From an uncultured Sphingomonadaceae bacterium (GTDB taxonomy: Bacteria > Pseudomonadota > Alphaproteobacteria > Sphingomonadales > Sphingomonadaceae), in NCBI GenBank assembly GCA_937995515.1, contig CALKJZ010000021.1:1-64000 (forward strand): DNA of 64,000 bases, written 5' to 3'. Of this stretch, positions 13,931 through 41,873 are shown one piece after another. The notes beneath the pieces were generated by a model that was not told the DNA's origin, did not search any database, and saw only the letters and a program-made list of their open reading frames with translations. Position 1 is the stretch's first letter. Every line of letters begins with the position of its first letter. Both the position numbers and the translations under genes were made by a program.

Positions 13931-14262
13931 CCGCCAGCCGGTCAGCCGCCGGTTCGACATTTTGCGGACAGGTGAGACGCGATCACCGCGCTCGCCCAGC
14001 CGGCCCTGCCGGCGGTGGCCCGGGCGCCGGCGATCGAGGCTGCGCCGGCCAGCGGCGGCCTCGCCCACCCGCGCAACCGGATCCGCCACCAGGCAGGCGC
14101 GGCGCGCAAGCGGATTGATGTGCCAGGACAGCACGCCGGGCATGGCATGCGGCCCGGCAAGCTGGTAGGGGTCGCGCGTTGCCCCCCGGCCGCAGCCGAG
14201 CGCGCCGCACCGGGGGGCATCGGCTGAGACGACCCGCTTCACAATCCCTCGCCGGAGGCACG
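13931..14262. other. 332-nt spacer without a recognisable gene
   Basis: Several frames on both strands are open across this stretch, but all give Arg/Pro/Ala-rich text typical of antisense GC-rich DNA. I recognise nothing. It presumably contains the promoter of the ACR3 gene; no arsR-type regulator gene is present. Confidence 0.5.
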
Positions 14263-15330
14263 ATGGCAACGCTTGCAGCGCCCGCAAAGCGCCTGTCCTT
14301 CCTCGACCGTTGGCTTACGGTCTGGATCCTTCTCGCCATGGCCCTGGGCACGGCGCTCGGGAGCCTGGTGCCGGGCCTTCCGCAGGCGCTCAACAGCCTG
14401 TCGATCGCGGGCACCAACGTGCCGATTGCCATCGGCCTCATCCTGATGATGTATCCGCCGCTCGCGCGTGTCCGCTACGAGGAGCTTCCGCGCGTGTTCG
14501 AGGATCGGCAGGTGCTCGCGCTCTCGCTGGTGCAGAACTGGGTTATCGGCCCGGTGCTGATGTTCGCGCTGGCGGTCCTGTTTCTTTCCGACTCGCCGGA
14601 ATATTTCACCGGCCTCGTGCTCATCGGCCTTGCGCGCTGCATCGCGATGGTCATCGTCTGGAACCAGCTGGCGCGCGGAGACAATCAGTATGTCGCGGCC
14701 CTGGTGGCCTTCAACTCGCTCTTCCAGCTCCTGTTCTTCAGCGTCTATGCGTGGCTGTTCCTGGCCGTCCTGCCACCGCTCTTCGGGCTCGAGGGCCAGG
14801 TGCTCGAGGTCTCGTTCCTCGAGATCGCCCGCGAGGTGCTGGTCTATCTCGGCATCCCCTTCGCCGCCGGCTATCTGACGCGGCGGATCCTCATCCCGAA
14901 ACGGGGGCGCAGCTGGTATGACGAGGCCTTCCTGCCGCGCATCGCCCCCGTGACACTTGTCGCGCTTCTCCTCACGATCGTTGCCATGTTCATCCTTCAG
15001 GGAGACCAGCTGATCGAACGCCCCGCCGACGTGCTGAAGATCGCGCTGCCGCTGGCGCTCTACTTCGTCATCATGTTCGTCGTCAGCTTCCTGATGGGCC
15101 GCCTCATCGGGGCCGATTACCCGCGGACGACCGCGCTCGCCTTCACCGCCGCGAGCAACAACTTCGAGCTTGCGATTGCCGTTGCCATCGCCACCTTCGG
15201 GCTGGGCTCGGGCGTGGCCTTCGCAACCGCCATCGGGCCGCTCGTCGAGGTGCCGGTGCTCATCTCGCTCGTCTATGTCGCGCTGTGGCTCGGCCCGAAG
15301 CTGTTTCCGGCAACCGCGCCTGGGCAATGA
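14263..15330 (+). CDS. arsB: ACR3-family arsenite efflux permease
   Basis: The 355-residue protein with ten predicted membrane helices belongs to the BASS superfamily. It has the ACR3 hallmarks: [20 protein letters not shown], a conserved Cys126 in [13 protein letters not shown], and Glu302 in [17 protein letters not shown], which correspond to residues essential for As(III)/H+ antiport in studied homologues. It exports arsenite from the cytoplasm to the periplasm. Unusually, no arsR, arsC or arsH lies beside it. Its stop overlaps the start of the next gene as ATGA, so it is coupled to an outer-membrane barrel protein. The symbol arsB is often used loosely for ACR3 proteins; acr3 is more exact. 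Confidence 0.92.
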
Positions 15331-16646
15331 GGTGCAGGCTCGGGGCGTTCCTGTTGCTGGCTGCGGCCGGCCCGGCTGGTGCAGGAGAGCTCAGCCTCTC
15401 TGGCCAGGCGCGGGCGCGCGTCGAGCTGATCGACAGCCAGGTGCGCCCGGGCGCAGCGGAAGACGATCTCCTGCTGGTGCTGCGCCTCATCCTGCGGGCA
15501 GACTATGATGCCGGGCCGCTCGCCCTTTCGGCCGAACTTCGGGATTCGCGGGTTTTCGGCACACGGCCCGACAGCGCGGTCAGCAGCAACGATGTGAACG
15601 CGTTCGAGCCGGTGGTGCTTCAGGCCCGGCTCGAGCTTGGCGACGCCCTTGGTCGCAACACGCGCACCAGCCTGACCGTTGGCCGCATCCTGCTTGGCCT
15701 TGGCTCCAACCGGCTCGTCGACCCGCCCGACTATCGCAATGCCACCAATGCCTTCACCGGCGTGAAGCTGGAGACGCAGGCGGGCCCGCTGGCCGTCGAG
15801 GCCGCCTGGGCCATGCCGCAGCAGCGGCGGCCGGATGCGCCGGAGGATGTTCGCGCCAATCGCTGGGCGCTCGACCGGGAGGGGACCGACCGGCAGGTCT
15901 GGGGCGTGCATCTCTTTCATCGGGAGGTGATTGGCGCTCTGGGCGCTGGTCTCACCTATGTCGGCTACCACGAGCACGACCGCGACGGGAGGCCAACCCG
16001 CGACCGGAACCTGCACGCCGTGGGCCCCTGGCTGTTTGCGCCGCCGCGGGCCGGCCGTTTCGACCTCGATGCGGAAGCCTATGTGCAATGGGGCACGGTT
16101 TCCGCCTCGCTCGAGCCGGACGCCGTGCGGCAGGAGGTGCTGGCCGGTTTTGCACGCGCCGAGATCGGCTACAGCCTTCCCGGCGCGTGGCAGCCGCGGC
16201 TGTCGTTCCGCTACGACTGGGCCTCGGGCGACAGGCCGGGCGCGCGCTTTACCCGCTTCGACCGGCTGTTCGGCAACCGGGTCGCGGATTTCGCCGTCTC
16301 GGGCCAATATGCTGCCATCGGCCGGGCTAATATCTCCTCGCCCGGCGTGCGGCTGGGCCTGCAGCGCGGCGCGATGGATGGCTATCTGACCGCCCGCCTG
16401 CTGTGGGCCGACAGCGCCACCGACAGCTTCTCGACAACCGGGGTGCGCGACGCCTCCGGCGCCTCGGGCCGCTTTGCCGGCGCGCAGCTGGAAGGCCGGG
16501 TGCGCCACTGGTTCACCCGCGAGCGGCTGCGGCTGGATACGGCCTTTGCCGTGCTCTTCCGCGACGGGCTGCTGGTGCAGGCGCCCAATGCGCCGCCGGG
16601 GCGTACGACCCTCTATCTCGCCCCGGCGCTCGTCTGGTCCTTCTGA
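15327..16646 (+). CDS. alginate-export (AlgE-like) outer-membrane beta-barrel protein
   Basis: The 439-residue protein has a signal peptide (about residues 1-19, cut after AGA before [14 protein letters not shown]). The body is alternating amphipathic strands ([53 protein letters not shown], each given in part) and it ends in an aromatic residue (LVWSF), as expected of a BAM-inserted barrel. The pattern [14 protein letters not shown] and FDRLFGNR is that of the alginate export domain family. There are no alginate genes nearby. The ATG overlaps the ACR3 stop (ATGA), suggesting a functional link. It overlaps the convergent gene by 34 nt. Confidence 0.8.
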
Positions 16647-17377
16647 TCGAGCGTGCAGCTGGCCTGGATCGAGCGGATGTTGATGCCCACCCGCTTTGCA
16701 CCCGGATCGGCCCAGGAATAGGCAATGGCCCGTTCGGCTTCGGGTGCGAAGACATAAAGGACGAGACTGGGCTGATTGGGCCCCGTGGGCCAGACCACGT
16801 TGCGCATCCTGAGCTCGAAGCGCTGTGGTTCGGGCTCGTCGGTTGCCAGCGCCACGCGCCCGCCCTGGTCGTGCAGCGCAAGGCCGCGCGCGCCCCACCA
16901 GTCCGTCGCCCCGTCGGGCCTTGCGGCCCGTTTCGGAATCGCAGCCCAGCAGACAAAGGGCCGCGCCCGGCGCAGTTCGAGCGCGCTGCCATCGGCCATC
17001 TTCAGCACCATGCCGGCAGGCGCAAACCGGTGGAAGGCCGCAGGGCCGCGGCAAACCCCGCGCGCGTCGACCGCCACCAGCTGATCCCCCTCGACCTGAT
17101 AGACCCGGGTGCAGCGGCCGGTCGTGATCGCCACCCCTGCGCTGCCCTCGGCGGCAAGCGTCATGCGCTGGTTCTCGGGGCCTGCCGCGCCATAGGGATC
17201 GAACGAGGTGAGCCGTAACCCCTCCCCTTCCGGTGCGATGGCAAGGCCCGACCAGGGCGGCGCCGCCGCGCCGGACTCGCGCGCAAACGAGACCTGTTCC
17301 TCGTTGGTGTAGCGCCCGGGCAGCAGCTGCTGCGCCAGCAGCACCGCCGCCGAGGCCGCAGCAAGAAGCGCGCTCAA
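16613..17377 (-). CDS. exported protein of unknown function, coupled to DUF1838
   Basis: The 254-residue protein starts at TTG 17377, which overlaps the DUF1838 stop as TTGA; no ATG or GTG gives a signal peptide. The N-terminal helix (LSALLAAASAAVLLAQQ) is a probable signal peptide or anchor. The mature part contains RYTNEEQVSFARESG, a PWSGLAIAPEG strand, several Cys (TTGRCTRVY, ARGVCRGP, PFVCWA) that may form disulfides, and a beta-rich C-terminal half. I do not recognise a family. It converges on and overlaps the AlgE-like gene by 34 nt. Confidence 0.65.
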   Translation of the reverse strand: MSALLAAASAAVLLAQQLLPGRYTNEEQVSFARESGAAAPPWSGLAIAPEGEGLRLTSFDPYGAAGPENQRMTLAAEGSAGVAITTGRCTRVYQVEGDQLVAVDARGVCRGPAAFHRFAPAGMVLKMADGSALELRRARPFVCWAAIPKRAARPDGATDWWGARGLALHDQGGRVALATDEPEPQRFELRMRNVVWPTGPNQPSLVLYVFAPEAERAIAYSWADPGAKRVGINIRSIQASCTLDQKDQTSAGAR

Positions 17378-18291
17378 TGCGATTCCACGGCCTTTGAGGC
17401 CGCCGCGCCGGCCTTCGCCCGCTCGGCCTCGACCAGCCGGCGGAACTCGGTCCAGGTCGTCGCATTGGGCCGCTGGTCGTCGATCGGTGGCGGATTGCGA
17501 TATTCTGGATAGTCGCGCTCCAGCCGCTGGCGCACCACGGCCGGAAGCGCCTCGTAGGCGACCTTCTGGCCGGTTGCGTTGAACACCATCAGCCCCGGCC
17601 GCGAGCCCATCTCCATGAACGGAAGCCAGGGCGCGATGCGCACCCACGAGACGGCCGCATTGGTCTGGCTGGTGCGCGGGTCACGCAGCTCGCGCTCGCT
17701 GGCCACGAAGTTGAAGATTTCCATCGCATGGTAATGATTGCCCACAAAGACCTGGAAATCGCCGCCAAGCGGGTTGGTGTAGAAGAGCGGGACCTCGATG
17801 TTCCAGAACGCGCGCCCGCCCTCGAACCGGAGCGGAATGCGGTAGGGCCGCCCGTCGCGCCCGGCTGCAAACATGGGCGGCTGGTTCACCGGATCATTGG
17901 CGACATGGACCATGCGGACCTCCCGGCCCGTCCAGGGGTTCCTCCAGCGGTCGATCACCTCGCCGGTTGCCGGATCGAGGTAGAACATGAGCTCGCGCGA
18001 CACCATGCGCACGCCGGGCCCACGTTCCGGGTCGACCACGGTCGCGCACTGGCGCACATTCATGCCCTCGATATTCCAGAGGTGCCGGTCCGGCTCGCCG
18101 TCCACGCGCGAATAGACCCGGCCCGACCAGTGATAGAAGACCGGCTGCAGATCCTCGGTCGAGCACTGGATCTTGCGAAACATCTGAATGGCATGGGCGC
18201 TGTTGTTGGGATCGAGCATACGCCCCTGGGCACAGACGCCGCCTGCCAAGCCCGCCGCTGCAATCGCACCCACCAGCCATGTTGCCCGCAT
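17374..18291 (-). CDS. DUF1838 family exported protein
   Basis: The 305-residue protein starts at ATG 18291 with a clear signal peptide ending at VCAQG (about residue 22). Then come RMLDPNNSAHAIQMFRKIQCSTED, VFYHWSGRVYSRVDGEPDR (in part), LFNIEGMN-like LWNIEGMNVRQC, REVMFYLDP-like SRELMFYLDPATGEVIDRW and the final DRPNATTWTEFRRL-like segment, the arrangement of DUF1838. Function is unknown; homologues are periplasmic and frequent in sphingomonads with steroid or aromatic catabolism. It is divergent from the MaoC operon across 124 nt that contain a 16-bp palindrome, so both directions may share one regulator. Confidence 0.82.
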   Translation of the reverse strand: MRATWLVGAIAAAGLAGGVCAQGRMLDPNNSAHAIQMFRKIQCSTEDLQPVFYHWSGRVYSRVDGEPDRHLWNIEGMNVRQCATVVDPERGPGVRMVSRELMFYLDPATGEVIDRWRNPWTGREVRMVHVANDPVNQPPMFAAGRDGRPYRIPLRFEGGRAFWNIEVPLFYTNPLGGDFQVFVGNHYHAMEIFNFVASERELRDPRTSQTNAAVSWVRIAPWLPFMEMGSRPGLMVFNATGQKVAYEALPAVVRQRLERDYPEYRNPPPIDDQRPNATTWTEFRRLVEAERAKAGAAASKAVESH

Positions 18292-18354: not shown

Positions 18355-18383
18355 TTGACAGGAAATTTGTCCGGACAAATAGG
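18355..18383 (+). promoter_or_regulatory. promoter of the MaoC-led catabolic operon
   Basis: A perfect -35 hexamer TTGACA lies at 18355-18360. With 17-nt spacing the -10 would be AATAGG (18378-18383), a weak match. The spacer is almost filled by the palindrome listed next, the classic position for a repressor operator. The MaoC start is about 33 nt further on. Confidence 0.5.
18365..18380. promoter_or_regulatory. perfect 16-bp palindromic operator
   Basis: atttgtccggacaaat is its own reverse complement across all 16 bases. It sits between the -35 and -10 of the MaoC operon promoter and 74 nt from the divergent DUF1838 start. The TTGTC/GACAA half-sites suit a dimeric repressor of the GntR or TetR type; no such regulator gene is in the neighbourhood. 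Confidence 0.65.
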
Positions 18384-18415: not shown

Positions 18416-18925
18416 ATGCGCCCAGGGGTGATCGAGGTTGGACCGCAGCGCTATCGCGAGACGTTCGGGCGGTATTATGAGGAGTTTACCGTCGGCGATG
18501 TCTATGAGCACCGCCCGGGGCGCACCATCACCGAGACGGACAACACCTGGTTCACCCTGCTCACGATGAACACCCATCCGAGCCATTTCGACTGGGAATA
18601 TGCCAAGGAAACCGAGTTCAAGCGGCCGCTGGTGTGCTCGCCGCTCACGGTTGCCATTCTTGTCGGCATGAGCGTGTCGGATGTGAGCCAGAAGGCCGTT
18701 GCCAATCTCGGCTGGAAGGAAATCCGGCTGACCGCGCCCGTCTTTGCCGGCGATACGCTCTACGCCGAGAGCGAGGTGCTGGAGAAGCGCGACAGCGCCA
18801 AGCGCCCCGAGCAGGGAATCGTGACCATCCGCACCACCGGCCGCAACCAGCATGGCGTGGTTGTGTGCGATTTCCAGCGCACCATGCTCATCTGGAAGAA
18901 GGGCTTCGGCCCTGCCGACCGCTAG
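18416..18925 (+). CDS. MaoC family enoyl-CoA hydratase, itaconyl-CoA-hydratase-like
   Basis: The 169-residue hot-dog fold protein has the MaoC run YYEEFTVGDVYEHRPGRT, ITETDNTWFTLLTMNTHPSHFD, and LRLTAPVFAGDTL-like EIRLTAPVFAGDTLYAESEV. The TMNTHPSH segment holds the catalytic Asp/His type residues. The text is close to mycobacterial Rv2499c-type proteins, which hydrate itaconyl-CoA in leucine/itaconate breakdown. This is recalled similarity, not an alignment. It is the first gene of the operon; the next gene begins 10 nt after the stop. Confidence 0.88.
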   Translation: MRPGVIEVGPQRYRETFGRYYEEFTVGDVYEHRPGRTITETDNTWFTLLTMNTHPSHFDWEYAKETEFKRPLVCSPLTVAILVGMSVSDVSQKAVANLGWKEIRLTAPVFAGDTLYAESEVLEKRDSAKRPEQGIVTIRTTGRNQHGVVVCDFQRTMLIWKKGFGPADR

Positions 18926-18935
18926 GGAGACCATC

Positions 18936-20114
18936 GTGGCCACCGCCTATCAGCAGCAGCGTGACATCGACCCCGCCTTCGAGGCGGGCCTCATGGATTC
19001 GATCGACAAGTGGATCGAGCGGGACCTGAGGCCGGTCGTGATGCACCACGACCATGGCGACATCTGGCCGGAGGAAACCGTTGCCCAGATGCAGGAGATG
19101 GGCCTTTTCGGTGCCACGGTCGGGCAGGAATGGGGCGGCCTTGGCCTTCCCGCCACCACCTATGCCGGGATCGTTGCCCGGATTGCCTCCTTCTGGATGG
19201 CGCCGACGGGGATCTTCAACAGCCACCTCATCTGCGCCATGGCGATCGAGAAGTTCGGCACACCGGCGCAGAAGGCGAAATGGCTGCCGAAGATGGCCAC
19301 GGGCGAGCTGCGCGGCGGGCTTGCGCTCACGGAGCCGGATGCGGGCACCGATCTCCAGGGCATCCGCATGACCGCGCGCCGCGACGGCGACCATTATGTC
19401 GTCAACGGCACCAAGACGTGGATCTCCAACGGGATCCACGGCCATGTCTTCGCCCTGCTCGTCAAGACGGACCCGGAGGCAAACCCCCGCTACAGGGGCA
19501 TGAGCCTGTTCATCGCCGACAAGTCGCTGCCCGGGTTCCGGGTCGGCAAGAAGATCGACAAGCTCGGCTACAAGGCCATCGATTCCGCCGAGCTAGTGTT
19601 CGAGGACTGCCGGATCCCGGCTGACCAGCTGATCGGCGGCGAGGAAGGCCAGGGCTTTTTCCAGGCGACCGGGGGGCTCGAACTGGGGCGGATCAATGTC
19701 GCGGCGCGTGGCGTCGGGCTGGCCGAGGGCGCGCTCCGGCTCGCAACCGAATATGCGCAGGTGCGCAAGACATTCGGCAAGCCGATCGCCGAGCACCAGG
19801 CGATCCAGCTGAAGCTGGGCGAGATGGTCACCCGCGCCCGGGCCGCCAGGCTTCTCACCTTCGATGCAGCGGCCGCCTACGATCGCGGCGAACGCTGCGA
19901 CATGGAAGCGGGCATGGCCAAATATTTCGCATCCGAAGCCGCGGTGAAAAATGCCGAGGAGGCGATGCGCATCTTCGGCGGTTATTCCTATTCCAAGGAA
20001 TATGAGATCGAGCGCTTCTACCGCGATGCGCTGCTGATGTGCATCGGCGAGGGCACGAATGAGATGCAGCGCATGATCGTGGCACGGCAGTGGGTGAAGC
20101 GGAACCCGGCGTGA
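18936..20114 (+). CDS. acyl-CoA dehydrogenase
   Basis: The 392-residue flavoprotein starts at GTG 18936, preceded by agggaga. It has the FAD/substrate block GLALTEPDAGTDLQGIR, NGTKTWISNG, QVRKTFGKPIAEHQAIQ, and a C-terminal RDALLMCIGEGTNEMQR, where the Glu in EGT is the usual catalytic base of medium-chain-type dehydrogenases. It oxidises an acyl-CoA to the 2-enoyl-CoA and passes electrons to ETF. It is the second gene of the MaoC operon; its stop overlaps the next start as GTGA. Confidence 0.93.
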   Translation: MATAYQQQRDIDPAFEAGLMDSIDKWIERDLRPVVMHHDHGDIWPEETVAQMQEMGLFGATVGQEWGGLGLPATTYAGIVARIASFWMAPTGIFNSHLICAMAIEKFGTPAQKAKWLPKMATGELRGGLALTEPDAGTDLQGIRMTARRDGDHYVVNGTKTWISNGIHGHVFALLVKTDPEANPRYRGMSLFIADKSLPGFRVGKKIDKLGYKAIDSAELVFEDCRIPADQLIGGEEGQGFFQATGGLELGRINVAARGVGLAEGALRLATEYAQVRKTFGKPIAEHQAIQLKLGEMVTRARAARLLTFDAAAAYDRGERCDMEAGMAKYFASEAAVKNAEEAMRIFGGYSYSKEYEIERFYRDALLMCIGEGTNEMQRMIVARQWVKRNPA

Positions 20115-21307
20115 GCGCCCCTGCCCGGCCGCTCGCCGGAACCCGGATCCTCAGCCTCGAGCAATATGGCGCCGGACCCTACGGCACGATGATGCTGGCG
20201 CAGCTGGGCGCCGAGGTCATCAAGCTGGAGCCGCCGAAGGGCGGCGACAGCTCGCGTGCGACCGGCCCCTATTTCCTCGGCCCCGACGACAGCCTCTTCT
20301 ACCAGACCTTCAACCTCAACAAGCGCTCGCTCACCATCGATCTCAAGACGGCCGGCGGCCAGCAAATCCTGCTCCGCCTTGCCGCCATGGCAGACGCCGT
20401 CACCAACAACGCCCGCGGCGACCAGCCGGAAAAACTTGGGCTGACCTATGCCGCGCTTGCCGAGGTGAACCCGGCCATTGTGTGCGTGCACGCCTCGGCC
20501 TATGGGCGCGGCAATCCGCGCGAGGCTTGGCCCGGATACGACTATCTGATGCAGGCCGAGGCGGGCTTTCTCTCCGTGACCGGCGAGCCCGATGCGCCGC
20601 CGACCCGGTTTGGCCTTTCGATGGTCGATTTCATGACCGGACAGATGCTGGCCACCGCCACGCTGGCGGGGATCCTTGCGGCGCGCGCAACCGGCAAAGG
20701 CGCGGACTACGACATCTCGCTGCTCGAGGCCGCGCTGCACCAGACGAGCTACCCGGCCTTCTGGTATCTGAACGAAGGCCACATCACCGGCCGCAGCCCG
20801 CGCTCCGCGCATCCGTCGGTCACGCCTTCGCAGCTGTTCCGGACATCCGATGGCTGGATCTTCGTGATGGCCCAGCTGCCCAAGTTCTGGGAGCGGCTGA
20901 CAGACGCCATCGGCGCCGCCTGGCTCCGCGACGACCCGCGCTTTGCCACCATGCCCCTGCGCCTCGAACACCGCGACGTGCTGACCGAAATCCTCGATTC
21001 CATCTTCATGACCCGGCCAACCGCAGACTGGATCGCCCGGCTGGGCGGCCTCTGCCCGGTTGCCCCGGTCCACGATCTTGCCCAGGCGCTCGACAGTCCG
21101 TTCATCCGCCAGCGCGGCATGGTGGAGACCATCCCGCACCCGGACCGCGCCGAACTCCGGGTGCTTGCCAACCCGATCCTCGTCGATGGCGCGCGCCTGC
21201 CCAACACCCATGCCCCGAAGCTCGGCGCGGATACCGCAGAGATCCTTGCGGAGGCCGGCTTCGATGCCGCAGAGATTGCCGCCTTCCGCGCCGAAGGAGC
21301 CATCTGA
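20111..21307 (+). CDS. CaiB/BaiF (family III) CoA-transferase, first of two
   Basis: The 398-residue protein begins GTG 20111 (overlap GTGA with the dehydrogenase stop). Family signs are LAGTRILSLEQYGAGPYGTMML, LGAEVIKLEPPKGGD, YFLGPDDSLFYQTFNLNKRS (part), and KGADYDISLLEAAL. Family III enzymes move CoA between acids through an Asp-bound intermediate. Pairs of such genes often form heterodimers, as in BbsEF of benzylsuccinate degradation. It directly precedes a second homologue. Confidence 0.92.
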   Translation: MSAPARPLAGTRILSLEQYGAGPYGTMMLAQLGAEVIKLEPPKGGDSSRATGPYFLGPDDSLFYQTFNLNKRSLTIDLKTAGGQQILLRLAAMADAVTNNARGDQPEKLGLTYAALAEVNPAIVCVHASAYGRGNPREAWPGYDYLMQAEAGFLSVTGEPDAPPTRFGLSMVDFMTGQMLATATLAGILAARATGKGADYDISLLEAALHQTSYPAFWYLNEGHITGRSPRSAHPSVTPSQLFRTSDGWIFVMAQLPKFWERLTDAIGAAWLRDDPRFATMPLRLEHRDVLTEILDSIFMTRPTADWIARLGGLCPVAPVHDLAQALDSPFIRQRGMVETIPHPDRAELRVLANPILVDGARLPNTHAPKLGADTAEILAEAGFDAAEIAAFRAEGAI

Positions 21308-21308
21308 G

Positions 21309-22382
21309 ATGGGCAAGCTCGACGGGCTGAAGGTGGTCGACCTCAGCCTGTTCCTGCCTGGGCCGATGCTCACCTGCATGCTGGCCGACCAGGGTGCCGA
21401 GGTCATCAAGGTCGAGCCGCCGGCCGGCGACCCCGCCCGCGCGATGGAGCCGTTCGAGGCCGGACAGTCCTTCTGGTTCCGCAATCTCAACCGCGGCAAG
21501 ACAAGCCTGCGGCTGGATCTCAAGTCCGATGCGGGCAGGCAGGCGCTCTGGGCGCTCGTCGAGTCGGCCGATGTGCTGGTGGAAGGGTTTCGCCCGGGCG
21601 TGATGGAGCGGCTGGGATTTGGCTATGACGCGGTTGCAGCCCGCAACCCGCGGATCGTCTACTGCGCGATTTCCGCCTTCGGGCAGCACGGGCCGATGGC
21701 CGGCCACCCGGCGCACGACATGGGTGCGCAGGCCCTGTCCGGCTTCCTTTCGGTCAACGACGGGCCCGACGGGACGCCCGTGGTTCCCGGCGTTCCGGCC
21801 GCCGACATGGCTGCCGGGCTGACGGGATGCGCGGCCGTGCTCATGGCGCTGCTCGGCCGCGCGCGCACCGGCCGGGGGGATTTCATCGACCTGTCGATGT
21901 TCGGCAGCCTCCTGCCCTGGTGCGCTCATGTTGCGGGCGAGGCCGCAATCGAGGGGCGGCCCATCCGCTCCGCAGAGCAGCGGTCACTGGGCGGGGCCGC
22001 CTTCTACAACGTCTATGCCACCGCCGATGGCCGGCACGTCGTGCTGTGCGGGCGCGAGGAGAAGTTCGTCCGCCACCTGCTCGAGGCGCTCGGCCGGCCC
22101 GATCTTGTTGCATCTGCGCTTGCGCCCGCCGGGCCGGCGCAGGAACCGGCCCGCCAGTTCCTCGAACAGACATTCGCCACCCGCACCCGCGACGCGTGGG
22201 TCAACTGGTTCGAGGGGCGCGACGTCGCCTTTGCCCCAGTGCTCGATTTTGCCGAGGCGCTGGCGCAGCCGCTGGTGCGCGAGGGCGGTCTGCTGGTGGA
22301 GGCCGATGGCGCGCATTTCCTCGCGCCCGCCATCCGCTTCGCCAGCGAGCCGCCGTGGCATCCGGTCGCAGCTCCGGCCTGA
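21309..22382 (+). CDS. CaiB/BaiF (family III) CoA-transferase, second of two
   Basis: The 357-residue homologue starts 1 nt after the first transferase stop. It shows LDGLKVVDLSLFLPGPMLTC, LADQGAEVIKVEPPAGDPAR, SDAGRQALWALVESADVLVE and GRGDFIDLSMFGSLLPW. The PAHDMGAQALSG segment contains the Asp position usual for the active site. It is clearly diverged from its neighbour, which fits two unlike subunits or two different substrates. Last gene of the tightly packed four-gene unit. Confidence 0.92.
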   Translation: MGKLDGLKVVDLSLFLPGPMLTCMLADQGAEVIKVEPPAGDPARAMEPFEAGQSFWFRNLNRGKTSLRLDLKSDAGRQALWALVESADVLVEGFRPGVMERLGFGYDAVAARNPRIVYCAISAFGQHGPMAGHPAHDMGAQALSGFLSVNDGPDGTPVVPGVPAADMAAGLTGCAAVLMALLGRARTGRGDFIDLSMFGSLLPWCAHVAGEAAIEGRPIRSAEQRSLGGAAFYNVYATADGRHVVLCGREEKFVRHLLEALGRPDLVASALAPAGPAQEPARQFLEQTFATRTRDAWVNWFEGRDVAFAPVLDFAEALAQPLVREGGLLVEADGAHFLAPAIRFASEPPWHPVAAPA

Positions 22383-22500
22383 GATGCTGCGTTTCTGCAA
22401 CAGTTGGCAACTTTTCGCCGCCCAGCCCTTTTCGCGCCCCGCCCCCTTGGCCTAGCCTTCCGCTAATCGGATCGCGGTCGTCGGGAGCGGAGGGGTTGCC

Positions 22501-25500
22501 ATGAGGTCGTTGCTGTTGGCGGGCGCATCCATTGCCGCGTGCCTTGGGGGTCCGGCGCTCGCGCAGGCACCAGCCGAGGAGCCGACCGCTCCGCGCACGG
22601 CTGCAACGGCCGATCCTGGCGACTTTATCGTGGTCACCGGCTCCCGGGTCCGGCGGCTCGAGTTCGACACACTCGAGCCGATTGCGGTCACGAGCCAGGA
22701 ATATATCGACGCGCGCGGCCTCACCAACGTGGCAGACGCCCTGCTGCGCCAGCCCGGCTTCGGCGCGGCCGTCACACCGGAAGGCGGCCAATCGAGCTTC
22801 GGGGTCAGCCAGAACTTCGTCAACCAGTTCGGCCTTGGCACGGCCCGCACCCTCACCGTCATCAACGGGCGCCGCACGGTGTCGTCGAACGCGCCCTCGA
22901 TCTTCGGCCCGGCCGCGCCCGGCGTACAGGTGGACCTCAACATCATCCCGCAGAACATGGTCGAGCGGGTGGAGTCCATTTCGATCGGCGGTGCCCCCAC
23001 CTACGGCTCGGACGCGATTGCCGGCACGGTCAACATCATTCTGAAGCGCGATTTCGAAGGCATCGAGCTGCGGGGCCTCACCGGCATCACCAGCCGCGGC
23101 GACGGCATGCGCTACAATCTCGCCGGCCTTTTCGGCCGCAATTTTGACGATGGCCGCGGCAACATCACCTTCGGCATCCAGTTCGACAGCGTCGATGGCG
23201 TGGCCGCGCTTGCCCGCCCGCGCACCCGCGCAGGGTTCGCAGCCCGCACCAACCCGCTTGCCAGCACGGTCGCCCAGTTCGCGCCCGGCCGCACGCCTGC
23301 CAACGACGGCCGCCTGAACCCCGATGTGCCGTTCAACACCGGCGGCACGGACGGAATCCCCAACGCGGTCTATATCACCAACGACCGCTTCTCGACCTTC
23401 ACGGCCAACGGCCTCCTGTTCCCGGCCACTGGCCCCTTCAACCTGAACGCCCTCGGCGAGGTGCGTGGCTTCGGCCCCGATGGCCGCACCTACTTCCAGT
23501 TCGACGGGCAGGGACGGCTCATCCCCTACAACCCCGGCATACCGTTCGGCACCTCGAACGCCAGTGGCGGCGACGGGTTCAACCTCACCGAAACGGCCCC
23601 GCTCACCAACGACCTTCAGCGCATCTCGGCCGCGCTCAACTTCCGCTACGATTTCAACGACAACATCCGCCTGTTCTTCGAGGGGAACTTCTATTCGGCA
23701 GACGCGCTGGAAATCCTCGACCAGGCTGCGTTCAATGTGAACCTGTTTGGCGGGGTTTCGGCGCCGCTCATCTTCTCGGTCAACGACCCGCGCCTGCACC
23801 CGGATGATCGGGCGAAGCTGCAGGCGCTCGGTGTCACCGACTTCCGCATGAGCCGCATCATGCGCGACCTGCAGAACAACAATGCCTCCTCCACGAGCGA
23901 GCTGTGGCGCGGAGTCATTGGCTTTTCGGGGGATTTCACCATCGGCGAACAGCCCTTCTTCTGGGAGGTGAGCGCCAACTGGGGCCGCTCGGAGGGTCGC
24001 TTCTTCTCGACTGCGCTCAACCAGCAGCGCTTCGTCAACGCGGTAAACGTGCGCCTCGATGCCAATGGCCGGCTGGTGTGCGATCCGAACCCGGCACGCA
24101 ATGTTGCACCAGGGCCCGTCCGCCCGGTGGCTGATCCTGCCTGCGTGCCGCTCGAGGTGTTCGGCGAGAACCGCCGTTCGGCGGAAGCCCTTGCCTATGT
24201 GACGGAAGAGAATGAATCGCAGGCGCTCCTCCAGCAGGAAGTCTATACCGCCGTGCTCGGGGGTTCGCCCTTCCGCCTGTGGGCCGGCGACATTGCCTTC
24301 GTGGCGGGCTTCGAGCACCGGGTGGAGCGCGGCAAGTTCATTCCCGCAGAGGCGCTGCGGGAGGGACGCGGGCGTTCGGCCATCATCAACCCCAACCGCG
24401 GCGCGTTCAACACCAAGGAGGCCTTCGGCGAACTGGTGGTGCCGATCACCGGCCCCGACAATGCCATTCCCCTCCTCTATTCGCTCACAGCCGAAGGCAA
24501 GATCCGCTATGTCGACAATACCGTCAACGGCGGGTTCACCACCTGGACGGCTGGCGGGCGCTGGCGCCCCCTCCCCGATGTCGAGGTCCGGGGCAACTAC
24601 ACCCGCTCGCTTCGCGCGCCGGCGCTTGTCGAGCTCTTCACGCCCCAGTCGCAGGCCTTCGCCACCGTGCCCGACCCGTGCGACACCCGCAACGTGAACG
24701 GCGGCGCGCGCCCCGAGGTCCGGCGGCGCAACTGCCAGGCGTTCTACCAGTTCTACGGCCTCGATCCGAACAACTTCCAGTCAACCGCGGTCAATGCGAC
24801 CGTGCCGATCGTGACTGGCGGCGATCCCAACCTCCTGAACGAGGAAGGAAAGGCGTGGACGGTCGGCGTCGTGCTGCGCCCGCGCTTCCTGCAAGGCTTC
24901 CGCGCGCAGGTGGACTGGAACGACATCAAGATCATCGGGCCGATCGCCAACCTCAACACCACCCAGATTGCAACCGGCTGCTTCGACAACGACAATTTCG
25001 ATACCACCGACGTGCCCAACGCCAACCAGTTCTGCAGCCGGATCCGCCGCAACCCCGACGGGCAGATTTCGGCCGACGTCAACAACCCGGGCGTGCGCAC
25101 CGGCTTCGTCAATGGCCAGGAAATTCGCTTCCAGGGGCTTACCGCCGATGTCGGCTACAGCTTCCCCGTGAAGGGGCTGGGGGACTTCGATCTGAGCGGG
25201 CGGCTCTTCTACCTCGAACGGCTCGTTTCCAACATCAACGGCGTGGTGCCCGCGCCCAGCCACGGCACCATCAACGATCCGCAATGGCGGGGCACGGCCA
25301 CGCTCGCGTTCACCCGGGGCCAGTTCCTGTTCGACTTCGAGGGCCGCTACACCGACAAGGTGAAGCTCGGGTTCTTCGACAATGAGGAAACCCGCGACAT
25401 CATCCTGTTCGACGACCACTGGCTGTTCAACACCAGCCTTGCCTACCGCTTCAGCGAGGGCACGATCCTGCGCCTCTCGGTTACCAACCTGTTCGACAAG

Positions 25501-25584
25501 GCGCCGCCCTTCCCGCTGGGCGGTGCCGGCACGTACGATACGCTCGGCCGCCGCTACGCGCTCTCGCTGCGCTACACCTTCTAG
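22501..25584 (+). CDS. TonB-dependent outer-membrane receptor
   Basis: The 1027-residue protein starts at ATG 22501 after a strong ribosome site (gcggagggg). The signal peptide ends at GPALAQA (about residue 22). The plug domain begins with a TonB-box-like DFIVVTGSRVRR and includes NVADALLRQPGFG and VDLNIIPQNMVERVES with APTYGSDAIAGTVNIIL. The 22-strand barrel follows, ending with the BAM signal ALSLRYTF. No CarboxypepD-like N-terminal domain is seen. In sphingomonads such large receptors import complex organic molecules as well as iron; its place between CoA-ester genes suggests it brings in the substrate of that pathway. Confidence 0.95.
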   Translation: MRSLLLAGASIAACLGGPALAQAPAEEPTAPRTAATADPGDFIVVTGSRVRRLEFDTLEPIAVTSQEYIDARGLTNVADALLRQPGFGAAVTPEGGQSSFGVSQNFVNQFGLGTARTLTVINGRRTVSSNAPSIFGPAAPGVQVDLNIIPQNMVERVESISIGGAPTYGSDAIAGTVNIILKRDFEGIELRGLTGITSRGDGMRYNLAGLFGRNFDDGRGNITFGIQFDSVDGVAALARPRTRAGFAARTNPLASTVAQFAPGRTPANDGRLNPDVPFNTGGTDGIPNAVYITNDRFSTFTANGLLFPATGPFNLNALGEVRGFGPDGRTYFQFDGQGRLIPYNPGIPFGTSNASGGDGFNLTETAPLTNDLQRISAALNFRYDFNDNIRLFFEGNFYSADALEILDQAAFNVNLFGGVSAPLIFSVNDPRLHPDDRAKLQALGVTDFRMSRIMRDLQNNNASSTSELWRGVIGFSGDFTIGEQPFFWEVSANWGRSEGRFFSTALNQQRFVNAVNVRLDANGRLVCDPNPARNVAPGPVRPVADPACVPLEVFGENRRSAEALAYVTEENESQALLQQEVYTAVLGGSPFRLWAGDIAFVAGFEHRVERGKFIPAEALREGRGRSAIINPNRGAFNTKEAFGELVVPITGPDNAIPLLYSLTAEGKIRYVDNTVNGGFTTWTAGGRWRPLPDVEVRGNYTRSLRAPALVELFTPQSQAFATVPDPCDTRNVNGGARPEVRRRNCQAFYQFYGLDPNNFQSTAVNATVPIVTGGDPNLLNEEGKAWTVGVVLRPRFLQGFRAQVDWNDIKIIGPIANLNTTQIATGCFDNDNFDTTDVPNANQFCSRIRRNPDGQISADVNNPGVRTGFVNGQEIRFQGLTADVGYSFPVKGLGDFDLSGRLFYLERLVSNINGVVPAPSHGTINDPQWRGTATLAFTRGQFLFDFEGRYTDKVKLGFFDNEETRDIILFDDHWLFNTSLAYRFSEGTILRLSVTNLFDKAPPFPLGGAGTYDTLGRRYALSLRYTF

Positions 25585-25757
25585 AGGCAGCGGGCCGACT
25601 CAGGGGCAGCGCGGCGGGCGTCGCCCGGCCTCACCTCGTGGCAAATGACCGCACCATCTCCCCACTTGCGCGAGGTGGCAGCCGCAGGGCTGCGTGGCAG
25701 GAACCGGGGGAAGACGGGAAAGACGGGGGATCGGGAGGGAAAGATCAGGAGGGTTTG

Positions 25758-26900
25758 ATGCTCGAGACAGGCCACCGCACCGCGTTCAGTGACGATCATC
25801 ACCAGTTCCGCGAGCAGGTGCGGAAGTTCTTTGCGAAGGAACTGCTGCCCAACCTCGACCGGTGGGAACAGCAGGGCATTGTCGATCGCAGCTTCTGGAA
25901 GGCGTGCGGCAATGCCGGCATGCTGTGCCCGACAGTGCCCGAGGAGATGGGCGGGCTGGGTCTCGACTTCGGCTACAATGCCGTGTTCAACGAGGAACTG
26001 GGCTATGCCGGCTCGTCAGCCGGGGTGACGCTGCAAAACGACATCACCATTCCCTATTTCGTGCATTACGGGTCGGACGAGCAGCGGGCCAAGTATATTC
26101 CGGCGATGATTTCGGGGGACTGTATCGCCGCCATCGCCATGACGGAACCCGGGGCCGGCTCCGACCTGCAGGGAATCCGCACCACGGCCCGGCGCGATGG
26201 CAATCACTATGTGATCAATGGCTCCAAGACCTACATAACCAACGGCCAGCATTGCGACGTGGTGATCGTGGTGGCCAAGACCGACCCGGAGCGGGGCGCC
26301 AAGGGCACGAGCCTCATTCTCGTGGATGCGGGCACGCCGGGCTTCGAGAAGGGCCGCAACCTCGACAAGATCGGCCAGCACAGCGCCGATACCTCCGAGC
26401 TCTTCTTCCACGATGTCCGCGTTCCGATCACCAACTGCCTCGGCGAGGAGAACCAGGGGTTCATCTATCTGATGAGCCAGCTGCCGCAAGAGCGGCTCTC
26501 GATCGCCATTTCCGCGCAGGCGGCCGCGCAGCGCGCGTTCGACGAGGCCGTCGCCTTCACCAAGGACCGCAAGGCCTTCGGCCGGCCGGTGTTCGATTTC
26601 CAGAACACCCGGTTCACGCTCGCGGATCTCAAGGCGAAGCTGCAGGTCGGCTGGGCCCACCTCGATTGGGCCATCCGCCGGCACATGGAGGGCCGGCTCG
26701 ATGCCTATGAGGGCGCAGCCGCAAAGCTCTGGCACACCGAGCTGCAGTGGGAGGTGGTCGATGCCGCGCTGCAGCTCCACGGTGGTGCGGGGTACATGAA
26801 CGAATATGCGATTGCCCGGCTGTGGCGCGATGCCCGGGTGCAGCGCATCTATGGCGGCACGTCGGAGATCATGAAAGAGCTGGTCGGCCGCAGTATCTAG
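25758..26900 (+). CDS. acyl-CoA dehydrogenase, long-chain/isovaleryl-like
   Basis: The 380-residue protein starts at ATG 25758, preceded by aggaggg; upstream residues do not look like protein. It has IAAIAMTEPGAGSDLQGIRT, NGSKTYITNG, FQNTRFTLADLKAKLQ, and YGGTSEIMKELVGRSI. At the end it has YGGT where medium-chain enzymes have the catalytic Glu (YEGT), so the base must lie elsewhere, as in long-chain and isovaleryl-CoA dehydrogenases, where it is in helix G. It follows the receptor by 173 nt and likely belongs to the same pathway. Confidence 0.92.
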   Translation: MLETGHRTAFSDDHHQFREQVRKFFAKELLPNLDRWEQQGIVDRSFWKACGNAGMLCPTVPEEMGGLGLDFGYNAVFNEELGYAGSSAGVTLQNDITIPYFVHYGSDEQRAKYIPAMISGDCIAAIAMTEPGAGSDLQGIRTTARRDGNHYVINGSKTYITNGQHCDVVIVVAKTDPERGAKGTSLILVDAGTPGFEKGRNLDKIGQHSADTSELFFHDVRVPITNCLGEENQGFIYLMSQLPQERLSIAISAQAAAQRAFDEAVAFTKDRKAFGRPVFDFQNTRFTLADLKAKLQVGWAHLDWAIRRHMEGRLDAYEGAAAKLWHTELQWEVVDAALQLHGGAGYMNEYAIARLWRDARVQRIYGGTSEIMKELVGRSI

Positions 26901-29176: not shown

Positions 29177-29690
29177 GGCCAGGCTCTCGGGCGCATGCCA
29201 AGGGTTACGACGCTGCCTGCCCCCGATCAAGGCCCGGGCACCAAGACACCGTGCCTGTCATCAAGATTTCGCACATGGGAGCTTTCCACCACAGGCCTGC
29301 GCGATCGCGCCACCTGCCGCGACGGCCCCATGGTCGGCAGCTGCCGAGCCGGTTGCGTGGACGCGGCGCGCGGGAGAGCTGGAGAGGAGATGCAGGCGCT
29401 TCTGTTGCCCGGCGCGCCTGCGAGCCGCTGGAGTCCGATTCTGTTACCGGGTTCGGCCCGAACCCTGCTCAGGCCTTGTAAGGATTGCCTTGGGGGCAAC
29501 CGTTACGCGGCGATCGCAAATGCCTCGTTGTCGTTGGCATTTGTGGGTTTTGACCCGTTTTACGGGAGTATCTGCCCGGGCAGAAACGGCGTCTTTCGCC
29601 ACACGTCGATCCTGTTTCGGCCCCGTCAGATCCTGCGCGCACGCAAGGAGTTGGTGGAGCCGCCGGGTACCGCCCCCGGGTCCGCAATGG

Positions 29691-30071
29691 CTATTCCACG
29701 CAGTTCTTCACTGCCATCTCCGCGCGAACGCGGCCCTGCTCATGTAGCATCCGGGCGGGCCGATTTGAAGACCGGCCCGGAAGGCCTGCCATCCAGGCGG
29801 CCGGGGCGAGCCGCCGCCGACACACCACGGCCGCGGCAAGCCCGAAGCCGAGGATCATCATCGCCCGGCTCTTCGGCTCCGGCACGACCGGGGCGGAACA
29901 TGTCTGCACATGTGCGAGCATCGCGGCATCGGCGCCGGTTGCAGCCGATTCCAGCGCGGAAGCGAGAACGGCAAGGACGGCCGCAGCGGCGACCGATGTG
30001 GCAGCCGGCGTCGCGGCATCGGCCGACCGTGCAACCCCTGCGATGGCGGCTGCAGGCGCAGCGGATCTCAT
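29691..30071 (-). pseudogene. degenerate PEP-CTERM protein gene
   Basis: A 126-residue frame from ATG 30071 is Ala/Val-rich and reaches VPEPKSRAMMILGFGLAAAVVCRRR, a PEPxxWA-type sorting signal whose Trp is replaced by Arg. In intact members the protein ends a few residues after the basic cluster; here it runs on for over 40 more residues without recognisable sequence, so the original stop is probably lost. There is no clean signal peptide. A candidate sigma-54 site lies about 42 nt upstream. Most likely a decaying member of the same family as the gene at 7621-8334. Confidence 0.5.
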
Positions 30072-39076: not shown

Positions 39077-40873
39077 TCAGGCGGCAAGCATCGCCTCTTC
39101 GGGCACGGCGTGGAGCATGGCCGCACCGCGCGTCACCGGGCCGAGAAGCGCAGGCGCGGCGGGCAGAAGCTGCTCGGCATAGAAGCGGGCGGTTGCGATC
39201 TTGGCCCGCAGGAAGGCCGGGTCGCCCCGCCCCTCCTCCAGCCTGCGCGCCGCTTCGGCGGCCTGCCGCACGAGAAGCGTGCCACCGAGCGTCAGGCCGA
39301 ACATCCTCAGATAGGGCGTGGCGCCGGCGGCGGTGTCGGCCAGTTTCTCGCCCGCATTGCCCGTCATCCACACCGAGGCGGTCTGCAGTGCCTCCAGCGC
39401 ATCTTCCGCATAGGGCCGGATCGCGCCCAGATCCCCGCCGTCGGGCAGCGCGGCAAGGAACGCCCGCTCGCGTTGAAGCAGCTGGCGCCAGTGCGTGCCG
39501 CCGTCCATCACGAGCTTGCGGCCAACGAGATCCAGCGCCTGGATCCCGTTGGTGCCCTCGTAGATGGGCGCAATGCGGGCGTCGCGATAGTGCTGCGCTG
39601 CGCCCGTTTCCTCAACATAGCCCATGCCGCCGAACACCTGCAGCGCAAGGCTTGCCATCTCGACGCCCATGTCGGTTGCAAAGGCCTTGGTGATGGGGGT
39701 GAGGAGGTCTGCCTCGCCCTGGGCCGCGCGGCGCCGCTCCGGGTCCGGCTCGGCATGGGCGCGGTCGACGGCTGCGGCATTGCGCGCGGCGATCGCCCGG
39801 CACGCCTCGGTCATTGCCTTCACGGTCATCAGCATGCGGCGCACGTCGGCATGTTCGATGATGCGCACCGGCACGCGCGACGGGTCTCCGAAACGGGCGG
39901 ACTGCACCCGCTCGCGGGCGAAGGCGAGCGCGCCCTGGAAGGCCCGCTCGGCAATCGCGATGCCCTGCAGGCCGACATTCACCCGCGCGTGGTTCATCAT
40001 CGTGAACATCGCCCGCATGCCGGCATGCTCCGCCCCCACCATCCAGCCAACACAGGCCCCCGAGTCGCCGAAGCTCATGGTGCAGGTGGGGCTGGCATGA
40101 ATGCCGAGTTTGTGCTCGGTGGATACCGCGCGCAGGTCGTTGCGGGCGCCCGGCCGGCCGCCCGCGCCGGGCAGAAACTTCGGTACGATGAACAGGCTGA
40201 TGCCCTTCGTCCCCTCCGGTGCGCCGGGCGTGCGGGCCAGCACGAGGTGGACGATGTTCTCGGCGAGATCATGCTCGCCCCAGGTGATGTAGATTTTCGT
40301 GCCCCGGATGCGCCACGTGCCATCGCCGGCCGGAGTGGCCTCGGTGCGGAGCGCGCCCACGTCGGAGCCGGCCTGCGGCTCGGTCAGGTTCATGGTTCCC
40401 GTCCAGCGGCCCTCCACAAGCGGCCGCAGGAAGGTGTCCTTCTGCCATGCATCGCCATGGGCCTGCAGCGCCTCGATCGCGCCCAGCGTCAGCATGGGGC
40501 AGAGCGAATAGGCCATGTTCGCGCTCGTCAGCTGCTCCTGCACCATGCAGGCAAGCGCAAAGGGCAGCCCCTGCCCGCCGTGTTCGGGCGCGGCATTGAG
40601 CCCGATCCAGCCCCCTTGCACATACTGGCGGTGCGCCTCGGCAAAGCCGTCCGGCATGGTGACGACGCCATCGATGGCCCGTGCGCCCACCCGGTCGCCG
40701 ATGGCGTTCAGGGGGGCAAACACATGGGCTGCAAGCTTGCCCGATTCGTGGAGGATGGCCTCCACCATGTCGGCAGTTGCCCCCTCGAAGCCGGGCAGTC
40801 GCTGGAGGCCGGCGATGTCGGCAATCGTCTCGAGCGCAAAGCGCTGGTCGGCAATCGGTGGCGTGTAGGTCAT
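39077..40873 (-). CDS. acyl-CoA dehydrogenase with C-terminal extension (DmdC/FadE-like)
   Basis: The 598-residue protein belongs to the long acyl-CoA dehydrogenase branch typified by DmdC (3-methylmercaptopropionyl-CoA dehydrogenase). It starts MTYTPPIADQRFALETIADI, a typical beginning of this group. FAD/substrate blocks are GTMNLTEPQAGSDVGALRTEA (part), GTKIYITWGEHDL, FGGMGYVEETGAAQHYRDARI, and IYEGTNGIQALDL with the catalytic Glu. The last 130 residues form the extra helical domain (WMTGNAGEKLADTAAGATPYLRMFG). It may act on short or branched acyl-CoAs; the exact substrate cannot be read from sequence. Divergent from the Sua5 gene with 46 nt between. Confidence 0.92.
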   Translation of the reverse strand: MTYTPPIADQRFALETIADIAGLQRLPGFEGATADMVEAILHESGKLAAHVFAPLNAIGDRVGARAIDGVVTMPDGFAEAHRQYVQGGWIGLNAAPEHGGQGLPFALACMVQEQLTSANMAYSLCPMLTLGAIEALQAHGDAWQKDTFLRPLVEGRWTGTMNLTEPQAGSDVGALRTEATPAGDGTWRIRGTKIYITWGEHDLAENIVHLVLARTPGAPEGTKGISLFIVPKFLPGAGGRPGARNDLRAVSTEHKLGIHASPTCTMSFGDSGACVGWMVGAEHAGMRAMFTMMNHARVNVGLQGIAIAERAFQGALAFARERVQSARFGDPSRVPVRIIEHADVRRMLMTVKAMTEACRAIAARNAAAVDRAHAEPDPERRRAAQGEADLLTPITKAFATDMGVEMASLALQVFGGMGYVEETGAAQHYRDARIAPIYEGTNGIQALDLVGRKLVMDGGTHWRQLLQRERAFLAALPDGGDLGAIRPYAEDALEALQTASVWMTGNAGEKLADTAAGATPYLRMFGLTLGGTLLVRQAAEAARRLEEGRGDPAFLRAKIATARFYAEQLLPAAPALLGPVTRGAAMLHAVPEEAMLAA

Positions 40874-40919
40874 GGGCGGGCCCTGTTCGGCTGGAGAGCC
40901 GCCTCCTATAGCGCCAGCG

Positions 40920-41873
40920 ATGCCGAGTTCCACCGACAGCGTGCCGCGCCGGGTGGCCGCAGACGAAGCGGGCGTAGCCGAGGCTGTCGGCCTTCTTGCC
41001 GCCGGCGGGATCGTGGTGATTCCGACCGAGACGGTCTACGGGCTTGCCGCCGATGCCGCCAACCCGGCGGCCGTCGCCCGGGTCTTTGCCGCCAAGGGCC
41101 GGCCGGCCCTCAACCCCTTGATCGTCCATGTCGCAAGCTTTGGCATGGCGGAACGCTACGGCCAGTTCGGAGAGCTGGGGCGGCACCTCGCCCGGCGGTT
41201 CTGGCCGGGGCCGCTCACGCTTGTCGTGCCGCGCCGGGCCGGGGCACCGCTTGCCGGGGCGGTCACGGCGGGCCTGCCCACGGTTGCGCTGCGCGTGCCC
41301 GCCCACCCGGTGATGCAGGCCGTGGTCGCGCGCCTTGGCCGGGCGGTGGCGGCACCTTCGGCCAATGTGTCCGGCCGTCTTTCGCCGACGCGCGCCGCGC
41401 ATGTGGCCGGCCTTGATGTGCCGCTTGTTCTCGATGCCGGACCCTGTGCGGCGGGGCTCGAGAGCACGATCCTGAAGCTGGGGGCGGATGGCGCGCTCAC
41501 GTTGCTGCGGCCGGGGGCTGTGCCGCTGGAGACGCTCGTGGCGGAAGCCGGGCGGCCGGTCGCGCCGGCCGGTGCCGGAGTGGAGGCGCCGGGCATGCTG
41601 CTTCGGCACTATGCGCCGCGGCTGCCCCTCTTGCTGGAGGTGACGGAGCCGGAAGCCGGCATGTTCCTGATCGGCTTCGGCCCGGTTGCGGGCGATCTCA
41701 ACCTTTCGCCGACGGGCGATCTTGCCGAGGCGGCAGCCGGCCTGTTCGACGCGCTCCACCGGGCCGAGGCAAGCGGTGCGGAGTCAATCGGGGTGGCCCC
41801 CATTCCGCGCCACGGCCTCGGGCTTGCCATCCACGACCGGCTCCGGCGAGGAAGCGCCGCCGGCTGCGTGTAG
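40920..41873 (+). CDS. tsaC: L-threonylcarbamoyladenylate synthase (Sua5 type)
   Basis: The 317-residue enzyme makes threonylcarbamoyl-AMP for the t6A37 tRNA modification. The YrdC domain has GGIVVIPTETVYGLAADA, KGRPALNPLIVHV, FWPGPLTLVV and SANVSGRLSPT. The extra C-terminal Sua5 domain (after APGMLLRHYAPRLPL) makes it the long Sua5 form rather than short TsaC. The start at ATG 40920 gives a short leader before the domain. Confidence 0.95.
   Translation: MPSSTDSVPRRVAADEAGVAEAVGLLAAGGIVVIPTETVYGLAADAANPAAVARVFAAKGRPALNPLIVHVASFGMAERYGQFGELGRHLARRFWPGPLTLVVPRRAGAPLAGAVTAGLPTVALRVPAHPVMQAVVARLGRAVAAPSANVSGRLSPTRAAHVAGLDVPLVLDAGPCAAGLESTILKLGADGALTLLRPGAVPLETLVAEAGRPVAPAGAGVEAPGMLLRHYAPRLPLLLEVTEPEAGMFLIGFGPVAGDLNLSPTGDLAEAAAGLFDALHRAEASGAESIGVAPIPRHGLGLAIHDRLRRGSAAGCV

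Follow-up and report, generated by a model that had tools for sequence, protein, structure and literature searches.

A group of genes for CoA-ester catabolism that surrounds a TonB-dependent receptor gene, in the genome of an uncultured Sphingomonadaceae bacterium, raises the question of which pathway these genes serve and which other genes of the genome belong with them. The group lies in positions 1 to 64,000 of contig CALKJZ010000021.1 (GenBank assembly GCA_937995515.1), a stretch of 64,000 nucleotides referred to here as the window; the genome (G000) comprises 2.42 Mb in 31 contigs and is 99.86% complete. We propose that the locus is probably the central operon of a dispersed catabolic regulon, the members of which are marked by a palindromic operator, and that this regulon would break down a branched dicarboxylyl-CoA by beta-oxidation and C-C cleavage. 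Gene content, gene order, conservation, clades, residue signatures and the distribution of the operator were observed directly. The six genes that the initial annotation had placed at 18416-26900 are all present as open reading frames (ORFs) at those positions and match the expected families. The features needed for the argument are:

17374..18291, minus strand: DUF1838 protein of 305 aa, counted from the ATG at 18291 (PF08894, 232 bits)
18365..18380, no strand: putative palindromic operator ATTTGTCCGGACAAAT, a perfect palindrome of 16 bp between DUF1838 and MaoC
18416..18925, plus strand: MaoC, an enoyl-CoA hydratase, RipB/Ich-like (NF038241, 241 bits, curated cut-off 340)
18936..20114, plus strand: ACAD1, an acyl-CoA dehydrogenase (ACAD) of EGT type, likely GTG start (Pfam ACAD domains)
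20111..21307, plus strand: CT1, a family III CoA-transferase, likely GTG start (PF02515, 377 bits)
21309..22382, plus strand: CT2, a CoA_transf_3 member with ATG start (PF02515, 354 bits) and a racemase-type His-Asp-Glu set
22501..25584, plus strand: TonB-dependent receptor, 1027 aa (Plug and barrel domains)
25758..26900, plus strand: ACAD2, an acyl-CoA dehydrogenase with GGT, like long-chain acyl-CoA dehydrogenase (LCAD) and isovaleryl-CoA dehydrogenase, likely ATG start (PDB matches)

From MaoC to ACAD2, the intergenic distances are in order 10 bp, a 4-bp overlap (the CT1 start with the ACAD1 stop), 1 bp, 118 bp and 173 bp, which bears out the description of the first four genes as nearly overlapping. 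The DUF1838 gene, for which a longer ORF begins at 18378, is divergent from MaoC and shares its upstream region.

Conservation of the four-gene block and its putative palindromic operator

We compared the surroundings of the best 80 of at least 580 confirmed candidates for relatives of MaoC, a sample that leans to close kin because only the best relatives were kept. Of these loci, 62 have room on both sides and 50 are longer than 20 kb; the positions of the lyase and of other neighbours were taken from tblastn maps. The block MaoC-ACAD1-CT1-CT2 is kept in 47 of the 62 loci with room. In 48 of the 62, the gene for a RipC-type lyase is found, on one strand or the other, no more than 1.5 kb upstream of MaoC. 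Since the four-gene order is found again in loci with alpha-, beta- and gammaproteobacterial labels, the gene set is not a product of chance. The full block is present in 40 of the 50 loci longer than 20 kb, and in these 40, at loose tblastn cut-offs, we mapped a lyase in 34, a GntR/UTRA regulator in 30, one or more of four families of C-N hydrolase in 29, a HapK/EthD-like gene in 25, an amidase in 22 and a PaaK-like ligase in 21. DctM of the carboxylate-type TRAP transporters occurs in seven loci, and amide hydrolases occur in other relatives. In the open-access literature searched, we recognised no description of the MaoC-ACAD1-CT1-CT2 block.

Four near relatives were compared more closely (L124/L001, L125, L126 and L002; the L001 sequence is carried by genome G001), and ACAD2 stands behind CT2 in all four, at 82-84% identity. 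The catalytic EGT attributed to the first dehydrogenase is indeed present in ACAD1, where Glu and Gly each reach 98% conservation or more across 65 rows and Thr is absent from the list of conserved residues; ACAD2 has GGT at the same position. We presume the role of the glutamates of MCAD and LCAD type in reading these motifs. The best PDB matches of ACAD2 are 2pg0 and human LCAD, with isovaleryl-CoA dehydrogenases also among the best, in agreement with its earlier assignment to the long-chain/isovaleryl type.

Some relatives have further neighbours. A MaoC of the same type stands near amidase and nitrile hydratase genes on a haloarchaeal plasmid (L119, 65%) and a Tistrella plasmid (L117, 73%), a context that hints at nitrile or amide substrates and at transfer across domains. 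A PuuE allantoinase-like protein is encoded at L077:8174-9076 (217 bits, cut-off 424.6), and PuuE-like relatives were mapped, at a loose cut, in 15 of the 50 full loci, often between the SDR gene and the lyase.

The palindrome ATTTGTCCGGACAAAT, just upstream of MaoC, is the sole match with up to three mismatches in the window, where 0.05 would be expected. Its core, TGTCCGGACA, has 101 sites in the 80 loci, where base composition predicts 1.45, and 83 of the 101 sites precede a mapped family; these counts are not independent, because the loci are related. The core was found upstream of the block's first gene in 40 of 78 loci, compared with 0 of 78 for 29 other palindromes of the same composition. 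Within 350 bp upstream, it precedes DUF1838 (13/14), TB13-type receptors (15/28), GntR (18/43), the lyase (23/57), MFS transporters (8/22), HapK (9/33) and MaoC (17/78), and it was found upstream of none of the ACAD1 (0/72), CT1 (0/72) and CT2 (0/53) genes. The core is also present at the loci of Aminobacter and Pseudosulfitobacter and at the second one of Tistrella. Tistrella pTM2 (L155) carries a similar operon, marked by the operator and including a TRAP transporter, except that its second family III gene is annotated in two pieces that overlap. Those open-access papers that hold the operator string are, by their titles, not on bacterial operators.

Operator-marked units in the genome

The core with flanking A/T occurs at seven sites in G000, whereas the reversed pattern occurs at none. 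By contig (C5 to C24), the sites are:

C21: the block operon of this window
C19: junction of GntR and PrpDa-PrpDb-PaaK-amidase-HapK-SDR, the PrpDa start being unsure
C5: TB13-type receptor (best 54-59%), MFS transporter, CN-hydrolase, DUF1330 and a membrane protein
C9: isochorismatase-family hydrolase (relatives in 13/80 loci, best 67%), with a divergent alpha/beta-hydrolase
C10: another receptor and an amine oxidase (relatives in 6/80 loci)
C8: a membrane protein opposite cobS
C24: a third family III protein on one side of the site, an HMGL-type lyase on the other

The C5 and C19 sites front gene sets that adjoin the block in other species, and the gene order on C19 is that found after CT2 in relatives. 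In the C19 stretch, only the shorter core is present; the exact 16-bp palindrome was not found within three mismatches. With E 1e-60 as the limit, a PaaK-like protein is found in eight of 59 related genomes and MaoC (at least 219 bits) in 15, with both in seven (hypergeometric 1.3e-4, kinship ignored).

The receptor of the window fits this picture differently from what was first supposed. It had been described as the module's own receptor, yet a receptor stands at this site in only one of the four near relatives, at 30% identity, and no operator lies directly before it (the operator match in the window is single). The recurrent type of receptor at the block's side sits instead on C5 behind the same operator, and the window receptor is not of that type (27% over 172 aa). 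The window receptor is therefore lineage-specific and not a conserved member of the module, although it may be co-transcribed with the block. A 19-bp Fur consensus has no match with up to three mismatches in the window, which is a weak test, other Fur sites being possible.

A lyase and a ligase, which had seemed to be missing, can be supplied from the wider comparison: the RipC-type lyase is near MaoC in most relatives, and an operator-marked HMGL-type lyase and the PaaK-like ligase are encoded on other contigs. The RipC-type lyase adjoins MaoC in G008 (59%) and G024 (87%). In the genus of this bacterium, a close RipC-type (Ccl/RipC) lyase was not found in the four genomes searched, G000, G001, G003 and G004; these have only homologues of 36-40% elsewhere in the genome. 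An HMGL-type lyase (68-87%) is present in seven of nine further genomes searched. This lyase is preceded by the operator, at a distance of about 30-40 bp, in all five genus genomes G000-G004 and in none of G008, G016 and G024 (0/3), and a second HMGL in six genomes lacks the operator throughout (0/6). Because the operator is found at the HMGL-type lyase in the genus genomes and not in relatives, the pattern fits a swap of the lyase in this genus by gain of the operator. C8 also has a RipC-like lyase, in a stretch of 10 kb shared with a gene read by eye as methylmalonyl-CoA mutase; it is a less likely substitute, since the operator site is absent there.

Breakdown of leucine or another branched-chain amino acid is a further explanation, leucine breakdown having been named among the findings that would speak against a separate module. 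Mycobacterial pairs like RipB and RipC also serve leucine catabolism. The presence of an HMGL-type lyase in the regulon would suit such a role, as would a carboxyltransferase (PF01039) and an ACAD that follow the operator-marked isochorismatase gene on C9, on the same strand. However, the block itself holds neither a carboxylase nor an HMG-CoA lyase, the second HMGL of the relatives, which has no operator, could be the leucine enzyme, and leucine breakdown has no use for amidases, PrpD or isochorismatase. We consider this explanation very unlikely.

Active-site residues and the proposed pathway

The active site of the racemase (MCR) of M. tuberculosis comprises His126, Asp156 and Glu241 (PMC10967716). 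We anchored these positions to the family through a Rhodococcus racemase-type protein, counting on the printed alignment. From the rows compared, those that were below 85% of full length, contained stops or fell below the identity limits had been left out. The equivalents in CT2 are H138, D168 and E252 in the 359-aa translation from 21303, or H136, D166 and E250 counted from the ATG at 21309. His-Asp-Glu is found in CT2 in 51 of 51 rows, whereas CT1 has Tyr-Asp and a residue other than Glu in 59 of 59 rows and His-Asp-Glu in none (0/59). In a wider set of 154 distinct family members from the loci, the triad is present in 56 of 56 CT2, 0 of 69 CT1 and three of 29 other proteins, the three matching references of racemase type. 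Of four reference proteins, L151, L152 and L154 have the triad and L153 does not. By these residues, CT2 is racemase-like. A single-sequence structure of CT2 reached a predicted local distance difference test (pLDDT) score of 39 and was not used.

The two family III proteins had been likened to BbsEF; on this reading, they would form a heteromeric CoA-transferase for an aryl- or alkylsuccinate. CT1 and CT2 are adjacent, co-inherited and unlike each other, and the catalytic Asp is kept in both, as this explanation would predict; the racemase His and Glu of CT2, however, are absent from CT1 and from the other transferases compared. The 9fn0 chains match CT1 and CT2 but rank under other family members. 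A BbsEF-like pair thus appears quite unlikely.

Of the initial idea of a module for a branched or dicarboxylic acid taken up through its own receptor, the receptor has fallen away, whereas a CoA-ester module for a branched (di)carboxylic acid is still the best explanation. In the sequence of steps that we propose, CT1 would place CoA on a branched dicarboxylate, with succinyl-CoA as the likely donor, and CT2 would epimerise the CoA ester at the alpha-carbon, as alpha-methylacyl-CoA racemase does. ACAD1 would then form the alpha,beta-enoyl-CoA, to which MaoC would add water to give a beta-hydroxyacyl-CoA of the citramalyl, methylmalyl or HMG type. Retro-Claisen cleavage would follow, by the nearby RipC-like lyase in most relatives and in this genus probably by the HMGL-type lyase on C24; ACAD2 may serve a further or alternative dehydrogenation. 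The HutC-like GntR/UTRA repressor encoded on C19 probably binds ATTTGTCCGGACAAAT. We infer all of these reactions, the direction of flow, the pairing of regulator with operator and the class of substrate.

A more specific proposal, which we put forward tentatively and regard as doubtful, is that the TGTCCGGACA regulon serves a so far undescribed breakdown of a nitrogen-containing compound (an amide, imide or lactam), in which hydrolases strip the nitrogen to leave a branched dicarboxylate and the block activates, epimerises, oxidises, hydrates and cleaves it, the CitE-type lyase having been exchanged for the HMGL type in one genus by a moving operator. Receptors, the CN-hydrolase, the isochorismatase-type hydrolase and the amidase, together with the PuuE homologue in relatives, might possibly be the nitrogen-stripping set. 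As a guess, imides from tetrapyrrole breakdown could be the substrate.

If the regulon is as proposed, the operator joins scattered and separately unremarkable genes into one testable unit and provides a means to find its members in other genomes. It would also assign functions to a racemase-type family III protein, DUF1838, two types of PrpD and several hydrolases, and it suggests a non-orthologous lyase replacement that can be tracked by the gain of a regulatory site.

The AlphaFold2 model of the DUF1838 protein (pLDDT 85) is without a confident PDB match; the best hit in the fold search had E 3.4e-3 and the query TM score was at most 0.30 among the matches listed, and we claim no kinship. 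Scans of the window for sigma-70 promoters and terminators gave matches not above those in shuffled sequence, and Rfam at gathering cut-offs gave only tmRNA and tRNAs. The alphaproteobacterial (permuted) tmRNA gene lies at 29430-29773 on the minus strand, near ORFs read by eye as rpoC and rpoB. At 14179-16646 on the plus strand, genes for an ACR3 arsenite efflux transporter and then an alginate-export-like outer membrane protein stand between the module and ORFs read by eye as ATP synthase subunits. Inspection by eye alone pointed to a further, larger ORF that resembles an acyl-CoA dehydrogenase (39077-40933, minus strand, 618 aa).

The proposed regulon weighed against known systems

The itaconate/methylsuccinate cluster of Pseudomonas and Cupriavidus comprises Ict, Mcd, Ich and Ccl and an MmgE/PrpD isomerase (PMC12290011), and the locus might be such a cluster (ich-mcd-mmgE-ict-ccl) plus extra genes. 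The kinds of genes agree, PrpD proteins are within the regulon, and MaoC shares 60.6% identity with the annotated RipB of P. caribensis and 57.6-57.7% with its counterparts in Thermus and Rhodococcus clusters of this layout, values that uphold its reading as itaconyl-CoA-hydratase-like. MaoC nevertheless stays at 241 bits against the RipB/Ich model NF038241, under the curated cut-off of 340. The Rhodococcus and Thermus clusters were assigned by gene order and do not stand for assayed Ict, Mcd or Ich proteins; against these references, identity is about 34.5% for ACAD1 with the ACADs and 30.6-32.6% for CT1 with its counterparts. By contrast, ACAD1 is 72-73% identical to Variovorax and Aminobacter ACADs that adjoin two family III proteins. 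A transferase tree of 50 rows, from 19 chosen loci of the 80 and 10 references, has three clades, each with support 100/100: CT1, CT2, and the transferases of Rhodococcus, Thermus and Pseudosulfitobacter, the references again being defined by gene order. The two PrpD proteins on C19 are without an NCBIfam match at 1e-10. The operator core was not found at the Rhodococcus and Thermus loci, and the four genus genomes named above are without a close RipC-type lyase. The block would work like the itaconate/methylsuccinate pathway, yet its proteins fall outside the groups that mark membership of it, and a plain cluster of that kind is unlikely, even with the mixed Pseudosulfitobacter locus in its favour.

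That locus is also among the observations that weigh against the regulon as we propose it: the operator is present there, together with an ACAD 61% identical to ACAD1, but its one transferase belongs to the methylsuccinate-type clade and CT2 is absent. In Variovorax, the four genes are present and the operator was not found, and the exact core is missing in 28 of the 80 loci, 11 of which are among the 49 that have the full block. The tie between GntR and the block is one of co-occurrence, GntR having been mapped with a loose cut-off in 30 of the 40 full-length loci that have the block, and a PaaK-like match is lacking in eight of the 15 related genomes with this MaoC. Within G000, conservation of the C10 receptor is poor, its best match reaching 33%, and the site on C8 fronts the membrane protein opposite cobS. 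The HMGL-type lyase may serve a separate step, since it coexists with the RipC-type in G008 and G024, and in G016 a close RipC-type lyase is lacking, as is the operator at HMGL. CT2 may still be a transferase, because its best PDB matches are transferases (YfdE 198 and SUGCT 181 bits, ahead of MCR at 145), racemases not being the closest. In the literature, we found no assay of any protein of this clade.

The putative operator has features of a known regulatory type. HutC-type operators have a TTGT-N4-ACAA-like layout; the palindrome has the same layout and differs in its centre, CCGG, and the GntR protein on C19 has HutC as its best NCBIfam match, at 99.6 bits, below the cut-off of 220. CT2 resembles alpha-methylacyl-CoA racemase (MCR/AMACR) in keeping the equivalents of His126, Asp156 and Glu241, while being closer overall to transferases by score, and its activity is a predicted one. 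With BbsEF (succinyl-CoA:benzylsuccinate CoA-transferase), the locus shares two unlike, adjacent family III proteins; the His-Asp-Glu set of CT2 sets it apart, the residues of BbsEF themselves lying outside the comparison. The closest parallel is the itaconate/methylsuccinate cluster, with which the locus has in common a MaoC hydratase, an ACAD, a family III transferase and an MmgE/PrpD protein and, in relatives, a CitE-type lyase. It differs in having its own ACAD and transferase clades, a second family III member of racemase type, a lyase that has apparently been changed in this genus, an operator that was not found in the two clusters compared, and amidase, ligase, EthD-like, SDR and receptor genes.

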